A stretch of DNA of 64,000 nt, taken from NCBI GenBank assembly GCA_009746045.1, contig RPFO01000079.1, forward strand, positions 6,654,453 to 6,718,452, read 5' to 3'. The DNA comes from Mesostigma viride (Eukaryota; Streptophyta; Mesostigmatophyceae; Mesostigmatales; Mesostigmataceae). The translations under genes were made by a program, and so were the position numbers. Below are positions 19,621-52,278 of the stretch, piece by piece (positions within the stretch are counted from its first letter, which is position 1; each line of letters opens with the position of its first letter). The notes under the pieces were generated by a model. That model did not search any database and was not told the origin of the DNA. It saw nothing but the letters and a program-made list of their open reading frames with translations.

Positions 19621-20415
19621 ATGTCCCTTACGCCGCTAAGTGCGAGGTCCGACCTCGCTATGCACTATGTCATCGAGCCGGAGAATCCGGCCTCCATGGT
19701 GCCTCACGAGGGGAAGATAAGGGGTATGCTGAGCTGCTGTGTAATACCGAAAACACACGAGGACGGCCCGCTTGCTGACCAGGATGGAAACAAGGTCGTG
19801 AGAAGACCTCAAAGGCTCATTGGCAGTAATTTAAGCAGGGAATTTAGCGGAGACGCTGTTGCTTCGGGCAGCCCCGGAAATGGAGATTACGAGCAGGGAG
19901 AAAATTCGCACGGTAATAGTGGCAGCGGTGTGCAGAAATCCGGACGAGGCTCCAAAATGGACGACGGGAATAGTCAGGACGCCGCATCTGCGCAGCATGC
20001 CGACGCGGACGCGGCGGTGCACAGGCCTCTCAAACTCCCGGCCCTGCGTACGGACGCCAGCGACGCGGGCCGTCGCATCGCACCCCGAGGCAGCCACCGC
20101 GAGAGCCCTCGCGCGATGGACCGAGAGAATTCCCAGACCCTTGATCGGGGCACGAGTTTCTACGGCCGCCACAGGAGCGGCATACATACGCCCGCCACTC
20201 CAGGAACTCCCCGGACCCCAGGCACTCCCCGGACCCCAGCCACTCCCCGGTCGGAGGCGCCAGGGAGCCCCTTTACCCCTCACGTGGCGAGTCTTGAGAT
20301 TGCGATCAAGGACGAGGTCCTGTACACCAAGCCCGGCTGGACGGCCAAGCTGATCGTGCGCTACCCAGCTACGGTCATGTTTTTGGCGGCGCTTCTCCCA
20401 ATCATCATGACCATT
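19621..20415 (+). CDS. Exon 1: cytosolic N-tail and TM1
   Basis: 265 codons. A polar, disordered tail includes a Thr-Pro-rich stretch (TPATPGTPRTPGTPRTPATP, about residues 198-217) that offers proline-directed phosphorylation sites. TM1 (about 247-265, YPATVMFLAALLPIIMTI) runs into exon 2. The donor ATT|GTGAGT lies in a roughly 70-bp repeat that continues into the intron. Confidence 0.8.

Positions 20416-52278: not shown

Follow-up and report, generated by a model that had tools for sequence, protein, structure and literature searches.

A predicted Dispatched-like RND transporter of Mesostigma viride carrying FN3-esterase and PI-PLC-like insertions in its second extracellular domain

A Dispatched-like transporter with two insertions

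A 64,000-nucleotide stretch of the genome of Mesostigma viride (contig RPFO01000079.1, positions 6,654,453 to 6,718,452; hereafter the window) very probably encodes, at 19621-52278 of its forward strand (+), a single polypeptide of 3,414 residues from 30 exons. This one algal gene, predicted from the genomic sequence, appears to encode an RND transporter of the Dispatched family that has acquired two distinct cassettes in its second extracellular domain (ECD2): an arm composed of an EGF-like segment, eight fibronectin type III (FN3) domains and an esterase-like domain (insert A), and a phosphodiesterase resembling phosphatidylinositol-specific phospholipase C (PI-PLC; insert B), located in a turn between RND strands. 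The features that can be read from the predicted product are the RND core with its ion-relay Asp residues, the succession of the inserts and their positions, an exon shared by PLC and RND sequence, and the His/Arg/His set of the PLC domain. A first-pass annotation had already proposed one polypeptide with these limits, and a parse made independently of its exon list gives matching figures once a GC-AG intron is allowed for. The same annotation grouped the enzyme-like domains in one extracellular loop; the FN3, esterase-like and PI-PLC-like domains are indeed found in ECD2, but alignment to two long relatives (P0001 and P0003, see below) resolves them into two insertions rather than one block.

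The RND core

Exon 1 (19621-20415) encodes a Ser/Pro/Thr-rich N-terminal region and, according to hydropathy, the first transmembrane helix (TM1, ~aa 251-269). It is followed by the first extracellular domain (ECD1, 22003-25517), which is encoded by exons 2-6 (22003-22269, 23514-23651, 24464-24544, 24763-24891, and 25358-25517) and aligns to P0001 and P0003. Exons 7-10 (26112-26271, 26896-26990, 28076-28186, and 29034-29434; together 26112-29434) hold the sterol-sensing domain (TM2-6) and TM7, whereas the second half of the core, comprising the end of ECD2, TM8-12 and a long Ser-rich C-terminal tail, is encoded by exons 29 and 30 (48772-49299 and 50074-52278). The sterol-sensing domain was found by its family model; the count of TM helices by hydropathy is not clean.

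Among solved structures, each half comes closest to Dispatched-1, in line with the Dispatched-like reading of the first-pass annotation. The first half matches the Pfam families Sterol-sensing (PF12349, 1.2e-18) and Patched (PF02460, 3.1e-13) and, among solved structures, Dispatched-1 (2e-24) ahead of Patched (3.5e-13) and NPC1 (3.3e-9). The second half follows the same order, with Dispatched-1 at 2e-19, Patched-1 at 1.1e-4, and NPC1-like proteins at 4.2e-3 or weaker; ECD2 itself aligns weakly with that of Dispatched-1 (stretch E 2.3). Judging by these matches, the core belongs to the Dispatched family of RND transporters, its nearest solved RND relatives being Dispatched and not Patched or NPC1. 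Both ion-relay motifs named in the earlier reading were located: GIGVDD (aa 604-609), which spans the exon 8/9 junction and aligns with GIGADD of Dispatched-1, and GLSVD (aa 2624-2628, 49129-49143), which aligns with GLSVD. The three conserved Asp are thus present, corresponding to those described in TM4 and TM10 of Dispatched (D572, D573, and D1051 in the human protein; PMC8630017).

The algal protein therefore shares with DISP1, the Hedgehog-releasing RND transporter, the sterol-sensing domain, the Asp residues of GIGxDD/GLSVD and the best match of both RND halves, and differs from it in the added EGF-like, FN3, esterase-like and PLC inserts and in the long Ser-rich tail. Furin cleaves Dispatched within ECD1. 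A basic stretch in exon 2, TRRRH (aa 319-323, 22162-22176), aligns with RWRRRS of P0001 and with RARRGS of P0003, and a conserved furin site was considered; it was left as a weak candidate, given that TRRRH lacks an Arg at P4 and that Arg pairs are common in P0001. In the last exon, the Ser-rich tail extends over ~630 residues and contains several basic RRxS-like motifs, which are possible kinase sites.

Relatives and placement of the inserts

Using the sterol-sensing region as a query against proteins of ~1,535-4,884 aa, four long protist RND proteins from ENA and EukProt sources were found among 1,230 candidates: P0001 (1,617 aa, 41% identity over the queried region), P0002 (1,642 aa), P0003 (2,619 aa, from EukProt), and P0004 (2,614 aa). 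All of them have the RND core in common with the Mesostigma protein. Two of the four, P0001 and P0003, were aligned, and once both inserts are removed (with borders set by eye) the algal core aligns with them along its whole length. They also bear long inserts at the equivalent ECD2 site, after its first strands, which is the place occupied by insert A. These inserts, Pro-rich in P0001 and, in P0003, rich in Cys and bearing an LNR domain, are unlike the FN3, esterase and PLC modules of Mesostigma, none of which appears in the precomputed Pfam annotation of P0001-P0004 or in hmmscan of P0001, P0003, and P0004. Insert B lies elsewhere, in an ECD2 turn between RND strands where P0001 and P0003 have just a short stretch. 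PLC homology stops at an LNG motif, and the strand that follows, IWTRVSVST (47934-47960), aligns with LTHTRVLIKST of P0001. In protist Dispatched-like proteins, ECD2 would be a site that accepts enzymes and adhesion modules as plug-ins.

Insert A: EGF-like segment, FN3 array and esterase-like domain

ECD2 begins in exon 11 (30124-30394) with VFLEYSESRF, which is followed in the same exon by the EGF-like segment (EGF_2, E 4.5e-4, just under the cut-off). Exons 12-19 (30788-31396, 31864-32214, 32471-32756, 33696-33769, 34874-35173, 36035-36316, 37693-38030, and 39162-39506; together 30788-39506) encode the FN3 array, matched by PF00041 in eight stretches (E 1.3e-69, 230.9 bits versus a cut-off of 25). 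Exons 13, 16, and 17 hold one FN3 module each with phase-1 borders, and the cassette formed by exons 12-22 (30788-42912) has phase 1 at either end; such module and cassette borders, as drawn by the gene model, are the pattern of exon shuffling. Since insert A leaves ECD2 and later rejoins it, the FN3 array would have to loop back instead of extending as a single rod.

The insert ends with an esterase-like alpha/beta hydrolase in exons 20-23 (40246-40529, 41159-41288, 42630-42912, and 43504-43872; together 40246-43872), the last of which finishes in RND sequence. From the end of exon 23 and through exon 24 (44273-44608), the RND part of ECD2 is resumed (43815-44608; NVEILDLLWG ... C..F..W), as shown by alignment to P0001 and P0003. 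The hydrolase matches PF00756 (E 2.6e-15, 57.3 bits versus a cut-off of 22) and the solved esterase 4rgy (2.1e-7), and carries the Gly-x-Ser-x-Gly nucleophile elbow as GISLGGYG (aa 1840-1847, 41199-41222). It has this elbow and the preceding stretch in common with the Esterase D/feruloyl esterase group. Unlike that group, less than one third of the Pfam model is matched (positions 86-159 of 251, around the serine), and the catalytic Asp and His are not placed; ADLPAS and SAHDF are candidates only, as the alignments to solved structures end before them.

Insert B: PI-PLC-like domain

Insert B, a domain resembling PI-PLC and of the At5g67130 type, is encoded by exons 25-28 (45204-45280, 46181-46417, 46774-46994, and 47579-47960; together 45204-47960). 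Exon 25 supplies the N-terminal CNGYAALC, exon 26 holds THNSF (46196-46210) and LCHG (46343-46354), and exon 28 carries the C-terminus of the domain together with the RND strand IWTRVSVST in one open frame. The best stand-alone protein shows 45% identity over 96% (E 1.8e-57), and 93 homologues of 157-449 aa were found among 2,439 candidates in a search that accepted only lengths near that of the query. PF26146 and PF26178 are precomputed on the homologues listed, and the family label comes by way of them, not from running these models on the window; PF00388 is precomputed on nine of the 93. His7, Arg38, and His57 are identical in the PLC domain and in all 19 aligned homologues, and a comparison with 41 further members of the family shows that the positions invariant among them, including both His and the Arg, are conserved in the domain.

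With the At5g67130-type PLC (PF26146/PF26178) the domain shares His/Arg/His, whereas the members found stand alone and this one is nested in a transporter. Those plant members of the family that have been assayed hydrolyse phosphatidylinositol (PI) and phosphatidylcholine (PC) (PMC6221933). Bacterial PI-PLC is more distant, with 10-17% identity and TH-D in place of the TH-N of Mesostigma. The assignment as PLC is based on the protein search and on the alignment of homologues, not on Pfam.

Proposed function and alternative explanations

The protein would lie in a surface-facing membrane, where an ion gradient would power the transfer of a lipid, or of a molecule bearing one, out of the outer leaflet and into the extracellular domains. 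There, the PLC domain would cut a phosphodiester head group—of PI, PC, or an inositol-lipid anchor—such that pump and cutter would share one substrate, and the FN3-esterase arm would bring another hydrolase close to the wall or the layer of scales. Taken whole, architecture and coupled pump-and-cut mechanism together, this proposal is evenly poised between right and wrong, and confidence in the coupling is much lower than in the single-chain architecture.

Several points weigh against the proposal. The placement of the PLC domain relative to the transport path follows from its insertion site alone, and splicing of exon 11 to exon 23 would keep the frame, meaning that some transcripts may lack insert A, with its FN3 array and esterase. 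Regarding the enzyme itself, Pfam PF00388 (PI-PLC-X) remains below its cut-off (12.4 bits versus 23.1, E 0.12), the PLC domain as a single query finds no PDB chain at E 10, and the bacterial PI-PLC fold that modelling gives to the family was taken from a relative of the spliced domain. NCBIfam gives no match for the domain, and no Pfam PLC model matches a longer construct at E 1. These profile and PDB misses are not read as the absence of a PLC, because the protein search (1.8e-57) is clear.

A credible alternative, to be held tentatively, is that the polypeptide combines independent functions: an ordinary sterol or lipid RND transporter, and a membrane-tethered FN3-esterase/PLC toolkit for trimming lipids and glycans of the wall, scales or surface. 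The differing inserts of P0001 and P0003 indicate that the ECD2 site tolerates modules unrelated to transport. The PLC domain, however, sits elsewhere than this tolerant site, nested between core strands of ECD2, a region where cargo handling is expected in Dispatched. A narrower form of the coupled mechanism, close to the release of lipid-anchored surface proteins imagined in the first-pass annotation, is a one-chain sheddase in which the ion-driven pump would lift an inositol-lipid-anchored surface molecule, the nested phosphodiesterase would sever its anchor, and the FN3 arm would bear a second hydrolase. This form is rather unlikely. Release of anchored proteins is possible, and hydrolysis of PI or PC is at least as likely. 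It is improbable that both the esterase and the PLC are non-catalytic modules binding lipids or glycans, an explanation that would suit the partial esterase match around the serine and its unplaced Asp and His, but not the invariant residues kept in the PLC, nor the retained GISLGGYG.

Should the predicted protein be produced in this form, a non-animal Dispatched-type transporter would have a lipid phosphodiesterase built into the domain where cargo handling is expected, and would offer a direct test case for the coupling between RND transport and lipid-anchor cleavage, which is described as unsettled for Hedgehog release too (PMC11412720).

Gene model and the single-gene reading

A dynamic-programming parse combined codon scores with weights for splice sites, its two ends, ATG 19621 and TGA 52278, being the sole fixed points. 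This yielded 31 exons (30 if exon 1 is left unsplit) and no internal stops; a laxer first parse with a low intron penalty was dropped, as it produced 50 exons, many of them tiny, and one internal stop. An extra intron within exon 1 scores slightly higher (1409.4 versus 1403.8), and the uninterrupted exon was retained, in agreement with the exon count of the first-pass annotation. The start of exon 6 was moved upstream (DFRFGMPVEGYASASDRP) because the alignment with P0001 demands it, which fits a GC-AG intron (AG|GCAAGT) between the end of exon 5 at 24891 and the start of exon 6 at 25358. The weak exons 15 and 25 lower the score when omitted (1395.4 and 1392.8, respectively, versus 1409.4). Exon 15 fills out the FN3 pattern, as judged by eye, and exon 25—starting at 45204, or at 45236 in the laxer parse—was accepted because it provides the CNG...LC N-terminus of the PLC homologues. 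The agreement of phases at all 29 junctions, emphasized in the first-pass annotation, is seen again, though it is not independent evidence, since the parse enforces it. Homology across junctions is the better evidence within this predicted model, with matches to P0001/P0003 in ECD1, in the sterol-sensing domain and at either end of ECD2.

A free parse in six settings, with starts, stops and gene number all unconstrained, held 24416-52278 as one gene in all six. Exons 1-30 fell in one gene in four of them (exon 1 partial or preceded by extra exons), one of which extended beyond the stop, to 54456. The parse started at 18805, 19957, or 24416 (at 18805 or 19957 in those four settings) and never at ATG 19621, so the start codon is uncertain. 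The codon scores were trained on segments of the same region picked by eye, which favours these exons, not the links between them.

It is very improbable that the locus comprises two or more genes, such that the FN3-esterase or PLC exons would form genes of their own, separate or nested, which lie between the RND halves and share their strand. Several details would fit such an arrangement: the links between exons 11 and 12 and exons 19 and 20 are supported by splice signals and phase alone, the donors of exons 22 and 23 are weak (2.7 and 2.8), and the first exons were detached in two of the six free parses. The break in those two settings, nevertheless, falls inside ECD1, where homology indicates one protein. 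The two-gene reading is further opposed by exon 28 (47579-47960), which joins the end of the PLC to the next RND strand without interruption, and by exons 23 and 11, each likewise in one open frame, joining post-esterase to RND sequence and RND to EGF-like sequence. Two-gene and nested-gene readings were thus rejected by free parsing and by homology across junctions. An assembly artefact or chimeric contig, which the flanking retroelements and the long simple repeats alongside and within introns might suggest, is extremely improbable, given that the RND halves surround the inserts on the correct strand and in the expected order, that they have exons in common with them, and that the window belongs to a contig no shorter than 6.7 Mb.

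Distribution and genomic context

The combination of a Dispatched-like pump with a PLC and an esterase was not found in the other proteins searched, as far as their sequences and annotations reveal. The PLC region gave no match at 1e-3 among 3,353 candidates of ~1,535-4,884 aa drawn from 5.77 billion proteins, in a search that needs shared exact words and misses proteins predicted in pieces. The earlier statement that no described protein is known to have this architecture agrees with the literature matches listed, among which neither a Dispatched or sterol-sensing protein with a PLC nor an algal or protist Dispatched occurs. One study treats Dispatched together with bacterial HpnN, and the words plants and protist are absent from its main text (PMC2698682).

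In the 440 Mb genome of Mesostigma itself, protein queries searched exon by exon led to this locus only, with all three matches for the PLC (E 1), all four for the sterol-sensing region, and all three for the esterase (both at E 0.1), which lowers the likelihood of paralogues without reducing it to nil. A family-profile search of the same genome is blind to multi-exon genes, since Sterol-sensing gave no matches despite the domain in this gene. A separate gene (C1857:1225709-1227013; L001 and L002) holds PF00388 PI-PLC-X in two adjoining stretches (3.3e-28 and 8.6e-16). The genome also yields 33 matches to chlorophyll-binding proteins, and one such open reading frame (ORF), compared with solved structures, has LHCI-2 of 9vfj as its top match, followed mostly by chlorophyll a-b binding proteins or LHCII. 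The host is accordingly an alga with a green-type plastid, as these matches include one ORF of the green-lineage light-harvesting type.

Around the gene, two reverse-transcriptase ORFs belonging to retroelements lie on either side, at 8588-10102 (RVT_1, 1e-12) and 61563-62228 (RVT_1, 5.1e-15), and a protein-kinase-like fragment under the cut-off (E 9.5e-5) lies at 6205-6597 (-). Long simple repeats occur beside the gene and inside its introns; those at 13700-15500 are very long and read as GGRE, THAR and similar repeats in several frames.
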